Of a stretch of 64,000 nt of DNA, positions 56,188 through 60,071 are shown one piece after another (position 1 is the first letter of the stretch; the number at the start of each line of letters is the position of its first letter). This DNA is from Rhodanobacter soli. GTDB lineage: Bacteria; Pseudomonadota; Gammaproteobacteria; Xanthomonadales; Rhodanobacteraceae. Below the pieces are notes generated by a model. That model ran no database searches, was not told where the DNA came from, and saw nothing but the letters and a program-made list of their open reading frames with translations. The DNA lies in the NCBI RefSeq assembly GCF_040548735.1, contig NZ_JBEPSD010000002.1, positions 496,001-560,000 of the forward strand, given 5' to 3'. The translations under genes were made by a program, and so were the position numbers.

Positions 56188-56682
56188 ATGACTTCAGCAA
56201 TGGCCTCCGTTCCGCCGCAAGCCGGCACCGAGATTTTCGAGCGGATCCTGGCGGCCCCGAGCGGCCTCGTGGTGCTGGACAGCAAGGACGTCCATGCCCT
56301 GATCGATCAGTTCCGCGCGATTGCCCGGCATACCGGCCAAGCGGTCTACCTGTGGCAGCCCGATACCGGCCTGGGCAGCCTGCGCGACGCGCAGGTGCGC
56401 GTGCCGGACTGCCAGCGCCTGGGCAACGCGCTGCGCTACATGCAGCAGAGCATGCATTTCGGCGTGTATTTCCTGCTCGGGCTGGAGCTGCCGCTGTCGG
56501 CGATGGATGCCACCTTGCTGCGCCAGCTCGCCCGCGCGCCCAAGGGGCATCTGCGCCGCGTGGTGCTGATCGACGCGCCGGTGGCGCTGGCCGAGCATCT
56601 GGGCGAGCTGGCGGTGCACCTGGGCAGCGAGGACAGCCAGCCGCGGCGCTTGCGTCTGCGCGATGGCCGGTGGCTGGTTTGA
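56188..56682 (+). CDS. Unrecognised protein upstream of GGDEF-EAL gene
   Basis: A 164-residue protein I cannot assign to a named family. It has alternating strand/helix character: L-V-V-L-D-S-K-D-V near residue 25, A-V-Y-L-W-Q-P-D-T-G-L (about 49-59), V-Y-F-L-L-G-L-E-L (about 93-101), a helix, then R-R-V-V-L-I-D (about 121-127) and L-x-E-L-A-V-H-L. The order, with the W-x-P-x-x-G-L and the L-R-Q-L-A-R helix, faintly resembles the N-terminal domain of Ycf46-type AAA proteins, but no Walker A or B motif follows. The ATG at 56188 is my choice; 56152 is possible. It ends 13 bases before the c-di-GMP gene, likely the same operon. Confidence 0.65.
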   Translation: MTSAMASVPPQAGTEIFERILAAPSGLVVLDSKDVHALIDQFRAIARHTGQAVYLWQPDTGLGSLRDAQVRVPDCQRLGNALRYMQQSMHFGVYFLLGLELPLSAMDATLLRQLARAPKGHLRRVVLIDAPVALAEHLGELAVHLGSEDSQPRRLRLRDGRWLV

Positions 56683-56695
56683 GAAAGGCATTCAC

Positions 56696-59257
56696 ATGAA
56701 TTCCGGCATCCTGGTGGTCGCAGCCCAGCGCGAACTGCGCCGCAGCCTGTTCGATGCGCTCGACCAGGCGGGTTATCCGCAGATCCACAGCGCGCGCGAC
56801 GTATCCCACGCGGCGATCCTGCTGGAGGGCCGCGCGTCGCTGCCCCCGCTGCAGCTGATCGTGGCGGTGCTGGCCGGCGACGAACAACAGGCACGCGTCT
56901 GTTGCGAGCAGTTGCGTCGTTTGCCAGGTGGCGCCGGCACGCCGCTGATCGTGGTGCTGGCCGAGGAGGCCAAGCTCGCCCCCACCGACCTGCCGCCGGG
57001 GATCACCGACTGGCTTTCCGCCGCCCAGATCAGCAGTGAACTGGTGCCGCGCTGGCGGCGCTCGCAAGCCGGCCAGCGCCCGCGCAAGGTGGTTGCCGCG
57101 GCGGACAGCGGTGCGCACGAGGATTACCGCTACGTGTTCGAGGAAGGCGACAGCGAATGGCTGATCGCCGACGCGCAGACCGGGCGCCTGCTCGAGGTCA
57201 GTCCCACGGTGGCCAGGCACAGCCGCATGCATGCCGGCCAATGGGAAGGATTGCCGCTGTCCGACGTGCTGCGTTTCGAAGGCATCGCGATCAGCCAGGT
57301 ATTGACCGAAGCCAATCGCAGTTGGTATCCCTGCCAGCGCAAATCGGCGCAAGGCGCCGACACCGGACAGGCCAGCGTGCGGCGTATCCGGCATGCCGGG
57401 CACGAGGCGCTGGCGTTGATGTTCCGCAGCGACCGCGCCGACCTGCGGGCCGAGGCTGCGCTGTCGCTGCTGTCGCGCATCTTCGCCTCGACCAGCGGGG
57501 TCGATGCGCAGACCGCGTCCGGCCGCCTGCTGTTCGACGAGCTGGGCCTGGATTACCTCGCGGTCTGGTCAGCGCGCCAGGACGGCGCCGACGCGCCGAC
57601 CCAGATGCTGCAGTTGTGGAGCGGCGACGACCCGCAGTGGCCGCCGGCGCAACTGCAGAGTTCGCTGCAGCTGGTGCTGGGCGGCAAGCCGATCCTGTAC
57701 CGCAACGACGCGAAGCGGCTGGCGCCGATCGACCCGCTGCTGCAGCAGCTCGACCTGGCCGGTTTCGCCGGCCTGCCGCTGTACGACGAACGCCACACCG
57801 TGCTCGGCGCCATGCTGGCCGGCAGCCGCCGCGGTTTCGGCGAGATGGGCATCATCGAGCCGGTACTGCGTTGCGCCGCGGCCCGCTTCGCGCAGATGCT
57901 GGAACTGGGACGCACCCGTGAACAGGGCCGTGCCGAGGGCCTGGTCGACGCCCTGACCGGCCTGCCGAACCGGCTGCTGTTCAACGACCGGCTGGACACG
58001 ATCATCCGCGAGGCGACCCGCAACGGCGAGTGCTTCGCCGTGCTGTTCGTCGACTTGGACCGCTTCAAGGCAATCAACGACACCTACGGCCATGCCGCCG
58101 GTGACCAGGTGCTGCGCACGGTCACCCAGCGTCTGTGCGGCAGCATCCGCGCCTCCGACACGGTGGCGCGCTACGCCGGCGACGAGTTCACCATCGTGCT
58201 GCGCCACATCGTGAAGAACGACGACGTGCTTCGCGTGGCCGAGAAGATCGTCCAGGTGATGGAGACGCCGCTGTACCTCGAGGACGGCACCGAGTTGCAG
58301 GTGACCGCGTCGATGGGCCTGAGTTTCTTCCCCGACGACGCCGGCGACGCGCAGACCCTGCTCAAGCATGCCGACGAGGCGATGTACGCGGCCAAGCACC
58401 AGGGCCGCAATACCTTCCAGATCTACGAGGTGAGTCCGGAGTACGCGCAGGAACACGGCATGGCGCTGAAAACACGCCTGCGCCATGCCGAGGGCAATGG
58501 CGAACTGCGCGTGGTCTACCAGCCGCAGGTCAACACCGAGACCGAGGACATCGTGGGCATGGAGGCGCTGGTGCGCTGGGAGCATCCCGAACTCGGCATG
58601 ATCAGCCCGGCGGTGTTCATCCCGCTGGCCGAGGAGACCGGCCTGATCGTCTCGATCGGCGAATGGGTGATGCGCACCGCCTGCCGCCAGGCGAAGGAAT
58701 GGGAGCAGCGCTACAGCCTGCGCCTGCGCCTGGGCGTGAACCTGTCTGCGGTGCAGCTGATGGAGCCGCGACTGCTGGATACCGTGGCGACCGTGCTGCG
58801 CGAAACCGGACTGGATCCCACCTTGCTGGAGATGGAGGTCACCGAAAGCATCAGCATCAAGGAGGCGCCGAACCTGGTCGAGAACCTGCACGCGCTGCAC
58901 AGGCTGGGCTGCCATATCGCGATCGACGATTTCGGCACCGGCGCGGCCTCGCTGGACTACCTGCGCCGGCTGCCGGCCGACCGCATCAAGATCGACCAGA
59001 GCTTCGTGCGCAACATCGGGGTGGACCCCGACGACGAGGCGATCGTGCGCGCCACCATCGAGATGGCGCATCGGCTGAAACGCGCGGTGGTGGCGGAAGG
59101 CGTGGAGATCGAGCAGCACCTGCAGTTCCTGCGCCAGCACGGCTGCGACGAGTTGCAGGGCTACCTGTTCTGCCGCCCGCTGCAACCGATCAGCTTCGAC
59201 AAGCTGCTGGCCGAACGGCAGCGCCTGCTGGAGGGACGGGTGGCCGAGCCGGCTTGA
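56696..59257 (+). CDS. GGDEF-EAL c-di-GMP protein with receiver-like N-terminus
   Basis: An 853-residue cytoplasmic protein. The first about 120 residues look like a response-regulator fold (I-L-V-V-A-A-Q-R-E-L-R-R-S-L-F-D-A-L-D, then L-I-V-A-V-L), but the phospho-acceptor aspartate is not evident (V-A-V-L-A replaces D). A PAS-like region (about 145-255) and a GAF-like region (about 262-410) follow, then GGDEF (about 420-580, variant A-G-D-E-F at 494-498) and EAL (about 595-845, E-A-L at 623-625). The EAL half keeps D-D-F-G-T-G and K-I-D-Q-S-F. A-G-D-E-F cyclases can be active, so both activities are possible. No transmembrane segment; input from the adjacent small protein is an inference. 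Confidence 0.88.
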   Translation: MNSGILVVAAQRELRRSLFDALDQAGYPQIHSARDVSHAAILLEGRASLPPLQLIVAVLAGDEQQARVCCEQLRRLPGGAGTPLIVVLAEEAKLAPTDLPPGITDWLSAAQISSELVPRWRRSQAGQRPRKVVAAADSGAHEDYRYVFEEGDSEWLIADAQTGRLLEVSPTVARHSRMHAGQWEGLPLSDVLRFEGIAISQVLTEANRSWYPCQRKSAQGADTGQASVRRIRHAGHEALALMFRSDRADLRAEAALSLLSRIFASTSGVDAQTASGRLLFDELGLDYLAVWSARQDGADAPTQMLQLWSGDDPQWPPAQLQSSLQLVLGGKPILYRNDAKRLAPIDPLLQQLDLAGFAGLPLYDERHTVLGAMLAGSRRGFGEMGIIEPVLRCAAARFAQMLELGRTREQGRAEGLVDALTGLPNRLLFNDRLDTIIREATRNGECFAVLFVDLDRFKAINDTYGHAAGDQVLRTVTQRLCGSIRASDTVARYAGDEFTIVLRHIVKNDDVLRVAEKIVQVMETPLYLEDGTELQVTASMGLSFFPDDAGDAQTLLKHADEAMYAAKHQGRNTFQIYEVSPEYAQEHGMALKTRLRHAEGNGELRVVYQPQVNTETEDIVGMEALVRWEHPELGMISPAVFIPLAEETGLIVSIGEWVMRTACRQAKEWEQRYSLRLRLGVNLSAVQLMEPRLLDTVATVLRETGLDPTLLEMEVTESISIKEAPNLVENLHALHRLGCHIAIDDFGTGAASLDYLRRLPADRIKIDQSFVRNIGVDPDDEAIVRATIEMAHRLKRAVVAEGVEIEQHLQFLRQHGCDELQGYLFCRPLQPISFDKLLAERQRLLEGRVAEPA

Positions 59258-59381: not shown

Positions 59382-59409
59382 TGAACTCGGGCGTCGGACC
59401 GCGGTCTGA
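59382..59409 (+). promoter_or_regulatory. Candidate sigma-E-type promoter before rpoE
   Basis: TGAACTC (59382-59388), a 16-base spacer and TCTGA (59405-59409) resemble the ECF sigma-E consensus GGAACTT-N16-TCTGA. It lies 48 bases before the rpoE start and would give positive autoregulation, as in E. coli. Confidence 0.6.
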
Positions 59410-59456: not shown

Positions 59457-60071
59457 TTGACGACGGATACGGCCCGGATGGGCGAAAATGAACTGGACCG
59501 TGCCCTGGTCGAGCGTGTCCAGCGAGGAGACAAGCGGGCCTTCGACCTGTTGGTGCGCAAGTACCAGCACAAGGTGATCGGGCTGGTCTCGCGCTATGTG
59601 CGGAGCCATGCCGAGTGCGAGGACATCGCGCAGGAATCGTTCATCCGCGCGTGGCGGGCGATCGGCTCGTTCCGCGGCGACAGCGCGTTCTATACCTGGC
59701 TGTACAAGATCGCGGTGAACACCGCCAAGAACCATCTGGTGGCGATGGGCCGGCGTCCGCCGTCCGGTGACATCGATGCCGACGACGCCGAGTTCATGGC
59801 CGGCGCCGAGCGCATGCACGACAGCGCCACGCCCGAGCGCGAGCTGATGCGCCAGGAAATTGAACAATCGGTGTTTTCCACTGTCCAAGCGTTGCCCGAG
59901 GAGCTGCGGACCGCCATCACGCTGCGCGAGGTGGATGGCCTCAGCTACGATGAAATCGCCGAAGCGATGGGCTGCCCGATCGGTACGGTGCGTTCGCGCA
60001 TCTTCCGGGCGCGCGAGGCGATCGACGAGAAGCTGCGGCCCCTGTTGTCGGACCGCGAGGATCAGACATGA
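59457..60071 (+). CDS. rpoE: RNA polymerase sigma factor RpoE (ECF, sigma-E)
   Basis: A 204-residue ECF sigma factor of the envelope-stress response. Region 2 (about 20-100) has D-L-L-V-R-K-Y-Q-H-K-V, D-I-A-Q-E-S-F-I-R-A-W and F-Y-T-W-L-Y-K-I-A; region 4 (about 140-190) has L-P-E-E-L-R-T-A-I-T-L-R-E and G-T-V-R-S-R-I-F-R-A-R. The TTG at 59457 has GGAAG 7 bases upstream; an in-frame ATG at 59478 would give 197 residues and a start closer to E. coli RpoE. The stop overlaps rseA (ATGA). Confidence 0.95.
   Translation: MTTDTARMGENELDRALVERVQRGDKRAFDLLVRKYQHKVIGLVSRYVRSHAECEDIAQESFIRAWRAIGSFRGDSAFYTWLYKIAVNTAKNHLVAMGRRPPSGDIDADDAEFMAGAERMHDSATPERELMRQEIEQSVFSTVQALPEELRTAITLREVDGLSYDEIAEAMGCPIGTVRSRIFRAREAIDEKLRPLLSDREDQT

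Follow-up and report, generated by a model that had tools for sequence, protein, structure and literature searches.

A stand-alone pseudo-AAA protein encoded directly before a degenerate receiver-PAS-GAF-GGDEF-EAL protein of Rhodanobacter soli: a probable two-gene c-di-GMP module

Background

Enzymes of c-di-GMP turnover are numerous (24 GGDEF matches in the genome considered here), and few of them have an assigned input. For input from a pseudo-NTPase to such an enzyme, the main example to date is BcsE, a regulator of cellulose secretion. The NTPase domain of BcsE, which is catalytically incompetent, forms dimers and is captured by BcsF by way of beta-strand addition, whereas c-di-GMP is bound by the part composed of the degenerate receiver and the degenerate GGDEF domain (PMC7439463, PMC11470070). 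FimX works with the separate partners PilZ and PilB (PMC8389850). E. coli DgcE has a partner system of the NTPase type (GTPase) that gives input to the c-di-GMP enzyme (PMC6510439).

Here we describe a gene pair located in a window of 64,000 nucleotides of Rhodanobacter soli. A preliminary description of this DNA had reported a 164-residue open reading frame lying 13 bases before the gene of a c-di-GMP protein; both open reading frames, their positions and their spacing were confirmed. The two proteins are called S (small protein) and G (c-di-GMP enzyme) below. We propose, as a reading that we consider moderately probable, that the two genes constitute a c-di-GMP module in which S, a dead subunit of the AAA+/ASCE type, most likely binds and controls G.

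Gene organisation

The two genes lie on the same strand and their features are collected in Table 1. The Shine-Dalgarno-like sequence of G (GAGAAAGG) overlaps the stop codon of S, which suggests translational coupling. S is a real protein-coding gene: compared with nine relatives, its dN/dS ranges from 0.056 to 0.196 in the annotated frame, and in each of the two remaining frames dN is larger than dS.

Upstream of S, a FadB-like gene (read from its ORF) is present on the opposite strand. An ECF sigma factor ORF and a gene for an RseA-like anti-sigma factor (Pfam) are found 3' of G, and a DegP-like ORF (ORF list) also lies downstream. Just before the ECF sigma factor ORF stand the elements GAACTC and TCTGA, with 16 bases between them; they resemble a sigma-E-type autoregulated promoter and are listed as a candidate.

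Table 1. Features of the S-G locus and their positions in the window
Feature	Position	Strand	Remark
S, 164-aa stand-alone Ycf46-N-like pseudo-AAA protein, without Walker A	56188..56682	+	ATG start
RLRDGRW motif of S, residues 156-162	56653..56673	+	predicted beta-hairpin; near-invariant in G-paired S
Shine-Dalgarno-like GAGAAAGG of G	56681..56688	+	read directly
G, 853-aa degenerate REC-PAS-GAF-GGDEF-EAL protein	56696..59257	+	ATG start
Degenerate receiver of G, residues 1-122	56696..57061	+	
PAS of G, about residues 143-255	57122..57460	+	lost in several S-keeping relatives
GAF of G, about residues 256-405	57461..57910	+	weak in the window protein itself
GGDEF of G	57944..58411	+	Pfam; motif AGDEF, I-site RASD
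EAL of G	58475..59179	+	Pfam; all canonical catalytic residues
GAACTC and TCTGA elements	59383..59409		candidate promoter
ECF sigma factor ORF	59457..60071		

The small protein

Neither S alone nor a profile of it matched anything significantly in Pfam, NCBIfam, PADLOC or the PDB sequences. In the same genome, S has one other relative, located at the N-terminus of an AAA protein of 491 aa (E 5e-6); the AAA assignment of this protein comes from Pfam and the name Ycf46 from our reading of the sequence. In this protein (L002) the S-like domain (G000:C1:1881717-1882106) is followed by a canonical AAA module (GVQGCGKS, VLWIDE); Pfam AAA was found in L002 only, with S itself ending after 164 aa. A profile built from 47 S proteins (A1) matched the N-termini of many AAA proteins (E 1e-8 to 1e-16), and the profile-profile comparison of S with the Ycf46-type AAA N-domain by HHalign gave a probability of 99.2% and an E of 6.4e-20 over 134 columns. 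The kinship with the N-terminal domain of Ycf46-type proteins, at first only suspected, is thus well supported. Equally well supported is that ATPase motifs are missing: the scan of 55 stand-alone S homologues yielded no Walker A, whereas all 21 AAA proteins possess one, located in the second half, and S has no C-terminal AAA module with the Walker A/B motifs (GVQGxGKS, VLWxDE).

The AlphaFold2 model of S (pLDDT 85, pTM 0.78) has as its best Foldseek match the E. coli clamp loader, at a modest E of 6.5e-3. With VIA, the closest structure is Rubisco activase at a Z of 8.6, a modest value near the level of a best match by chance, with p97 and RFC close behind; nearly all top matches belong to one superfamily (AAA+/RecA-like). 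The predicted fold is therefore AAA+/ASCE-like, with an alpha/beta ASCE core, which agrees with the sequence homology; a well-known unrelated fold would have spoken against the preliminary description, and the predicted structure points to an ATPase-like one instead. As this predicted fold comes without Walker A, S is a pseudo-ATPase, and stand-alone pseudo-AAA domain is the most fitting name for it. The tree, built from 76 sequences, separates the G-paired S proteins (support 99/96) from the AAA N-domains (support 100/100) and places the remaining stand-alone S proteins between these two groups. This separation indicates that S did not arise by recent breakage of a Ycf46 gene.

The c-di-GMP enzyme

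In G itself, Pfam recognises GGDEF (E 5.5e-50) and EAL (E 1.5e-74); in its relatives, Pfam also detects PAS, with E values down to 6e-11, and GAF, with E values down to 2e-6. The first 122 residues have a receiver fold, as judged from the model of the relative L066 (VIA Z 13.3 over 112 residues), and the profile of this domain is nearest to the second receiver region of PleD (E 5.6e-15). The receiver-like N-terminus had been described as lacking a clear phosphorylation site, and the family-wide comparison agrees. Indeed, among the 160 relatives that retain the receiver, the CheY-equivalent positions are not conserved: Asp occupies D57 in 5% and Thr occupies T87 in 1% of them, no Asp appears among the residues listed at D12/D13, and Lys is outside the six commonest residues at K109. 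The domain has thus lost all receiver phosphorylation residues and does not qualify as a phosphorylatable response regulator.

The catalytic residues of the EAL domain (EAL, N, E, DD, K, E, Q) are all about 100% conserved among G relatives, in which the cyclase motif, GG(D/E)EF in active diguanylate cyclases, reads AGDEF (91%) or SGDEF (8%) and the I-site keeps its R (83%) and D (82%). We predict that G functions as a phosphodiesterase and may also be a cyclase. The PAS domain has been lost from G at L068/L076/L078, L101 and L172, all of which retain S and its C-terminal tail. An identity of G with the LchP phosphodiesterase of Lysobacter was considered and rejected, LchP being a membrane-type PAS-GGDEF-EAL protein.

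Conservation of the pair

S is present in 81 of the 97 genomes of the family. In the set obtained by the family search and a scan of named genomes, in which some species appear twice, G directly follows S on the same strand at all 118 loci. Where the spacing was refined, it ranges from -13 to +45 bases (mostly -4 to +19), with stop and start codons often overlapping. This arrangement is kept in other families of the order, and also in the distant family f189, some of these loci being only about 20% alike. Overall, 184 of 185 S loci across the order have G directly downstream; the sole S locus without G (L212) apparently lies at a contig end. The co-occurrence that the preliminary description named as a check is thus strong. 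With 24 GGDEF matches in this genome, we roughly estimate the probability of a chance adjacency at about 1%.

Loss is also shared. When the 27 S-less genomes of the order were searched with the N-terminal part of G, none gave a match over its full length. Two of them have a G: an intact-looking one in G042 and a copy with in-frame stops in G024. The copy of G042 (L238/L253) is apparently intact, has no PAS and is accompanied by no S, and hence G can persist alone. The co-occurrence of S and G is close to strict, with G042 as a real exception. The position of S, almost always directly before one c-di-GMP enzyme throughout the order, makes it probably a dedicated regulatory subunit.

Homologues of S beside other cyclases

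Outside the order, we found 25 stand-alone S homologues in other Gammaproteobacteria, all without the RDGRW tail. In 16 of the 25, distributed over about eight families, a gene for a cyclase of 300-340 aa (GGDEF by Pfam) is located directly upstream on the same strand, so that the gene order is reversed relative to S-G, the cyclase coming first and the S homologue behind. These neighbouring cyclases show no sign of the degenerate receiver of G, their N-terminus not being a receiver, and the GAF model derived from G did not match them. At L122-L146, Ycf46-N-like proteins stand behind a cyclase of about 310 aa made of a conserved N-terminal domain and GGDEF; at L123, L127 and L143, an ORF that reads as an SDR-type dehydrogenase precedes the S homologue instead.

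This second and independent association strengthens the functional link of S with c-di-GMP, the common factor being a GGDEF protein. The idea of a two-gene c-di-GMP module with an unusual input is therefore supported by the pairing, the co-loss and the GGDEF association elsewhere, in the form of a pseudo-NTPase subunit module. More tentatively, and with the balance leaning against it, stand-alone Ycf46-N pseudo-AAA proteins could be a portable, so far unrecognised input of c-di-GMP enzymes across Gammaproteobacteria; S and G would then be a split version of the NTPase-receiver layout of BcsE, switched not by phosphorylation but by a dead ATPase together with a dead receiver.

Contact between S and G

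The C-terminal tail of S is strongly conserved. Among 185 S rows, L157, R158 and W162 are kept in nearly all, D159 in 177 and G160 in 171, and the first Arg of RLRD in 145 (V or K in f189). The RDGRW sequence is absent from the AAA N-domains and from the class-level relatives aligned with S. In genus g303 of f189, the seven genomes whose G has no receiver carry an S tail reading RDAKW or RNAQW, the tail is RDSKW in two genomes whose receiver has diverged strongly, and RDGQW or RDGKW in two whose receiver is intact. Within f189, a G without receiver beside an S tail of RDAKW or RNAQW was seen at L177, L178, L181, L189-L191, L193, L195, L196 and L199, and a strongly diverged receiver beside RDSKW at L188 and L192. 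The parallel between receiver loss and altered tail in g303 hints at a contact between tail and receiver, but is only suggestive, as it concerns one clade and perhaps one or two events.

The preliminary description had suggested that the receiver-like domain could bind S, and had called for a complex prediction. We modelled a fused S-linker-receiver chain from L066, with the genes in frame and TGA read as Gly (12 in-frame rows plus unpaired rows). Both domains fold well in this model (pTM 0.62, tail pLDDT about 50), and it contains no confident interface, a result that neither supports nor excludes binding and leaves the receiver as binding site without support so far. In a mean-field DCA of S against each domain of G, at an effective depth of about 40-79 sequences, which is too shallow for reliable couplings, the strongest pairs fall in the variable N-terminus of S. 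The PA3177 lead gave no information on any adjacent S homologue.

Proposed function and alternatives

In the module that we propose, S would be made in step with G and act as its regulatory subunit. Acting on the sensory N-terminal region of G (receiver-PAS-GAF), S would control how G turns over c-di-GMP or where in the cell G is placed. As the receiver cannot be phosphorylated, we propose that the input is protein-protein binding and not a histidine kinase. The homology, the folds, the lost active sites, the strict pairing and the co-loss are results of the analysis, whereas the physical binding of S to G, the direction of control and the domain touched are inferred from them. As output, the EAL domain would hydrolyse c-di-GMP, and the (A/S)GDEF domain may be an active cyclase or a sensor of GTP or c-di-GMP.

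The alternative that survives best, although we consider it unlikely, keeps the pair and moves the contact: S would touch the GAF-GGDEF core of G, and the task of the receiver would be dimerisation, as it is for the second receiver in PleD. The S homologues of other Gammaproteobacteria suggest this, as they adjoin short cyclases without a receiver N-terminus and have GGDEF as the common denominator; the closeness of the receiver profile to PleD and the lack of an interface in the fused model point the same way. However, the GAF model of G did not recognise those cyclases, and the clade without receiver has an altered S tail (G160 to A) while its GAF-GGDEF part is unchanged in presence.

A role of S as a sensor of a small molecule or of c-di-GMP itself, for example through the RxxD-like RLRD tail, with relay to G, seems improbable to us. 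The near invariance of R158, D159 and W162 would fit such a role, as would the RxxD motifs of the degenerate receiver and GGDEF domains of BcsE, which bind c-di-GMP; yet the first Arg of the motif is too variable in S for a strict RxxD, and S is without nucleotide-binding motif. We give as little weight to mere co-expression from a shared promoter with translational coupling, S having an unrelated role: the tight spacing alone would fit it, and so would the genome that has G without S, but S and G co-occur almost perfectly across the order and are lost together, and the domain has a second association with GGDEF genes in another gene order; these points argue against it. Finally, S as a decoy or adaptor of the N-domain of a Ycf46-type AAA ATPase, linking this ATPase to G, is very unlikely: despite the clear homology and the presence of such an ATPase in the same genome, the two kinds of domain fall in separate well-supported groups of the tree, several genomes with S and G (e.g. 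G014, G004, G013) have no match to an AAA N-domain, and the AAA gene lies elsewhere in the chromosome.

Comparison with known systems

BcsE is the closest working precedent for the proposed module of S and G, without detectable sequence homology: HHalign of A1 against BcsE gave a probability of 0.1% (two BcsE sequences only), and PF10995 has no match in this genome. The two systems resemble each other in the succession of an incompetent P-loop-like NTPase domain, a phosphorylation-incompetent receiver and a GGDEF domain, in the context of c-di-GMP signalling, and BcsE is among the Foldseek matches of the fused S-receiver model (E 4.8e-3). They differ in that BcsE is a single chain with a degenerate GGDEF and without EAL, PAS or GAF, whereas the present system is split over two genes and includes PAS, GAF and a non-degenerate EAL; moreover, the neighbours of S and G are sigma-E genes and not bcs genes.

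The Ycf46-type AAA proteins are related to S over the 134 aligned columns and, like S, have no Walker A in that domain; S differs from them by the absence of an AAA module, by its separate clade and by its C-terminal RDGRW hairpin. PleD, whose second receiver is by profile the nearest solved relative of the G receiver, also has a true receiver and, unlike G, is without PAS, GAF and EAL; we know of no small partner gene of PleD. FimX resembles G in having a receiver without phosphorylation site ahead of PAS-GGDEF-EAL; its GGDEF and EAL are degenerate (Filp/FimX), whereas the EAL catalytic residues of G are intact and its presumed partner is a pseudo-AAA protein. DgcE is a membrane protein with active GTPase partners, and the searches made found no relation between it and S-G.

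S thus stands for an unnamed family tied to one c-di-GMP enzyme throughout an order, and offers a directly testable partner for one of these many enzymes. If our proposal is correct, it would provide the Ycf46 N-domain, to which our searches linked no function, with a role, and would extend the pseudo-NTPase and pseudo-receiver layout of BcsE beyond cellulose secretion.
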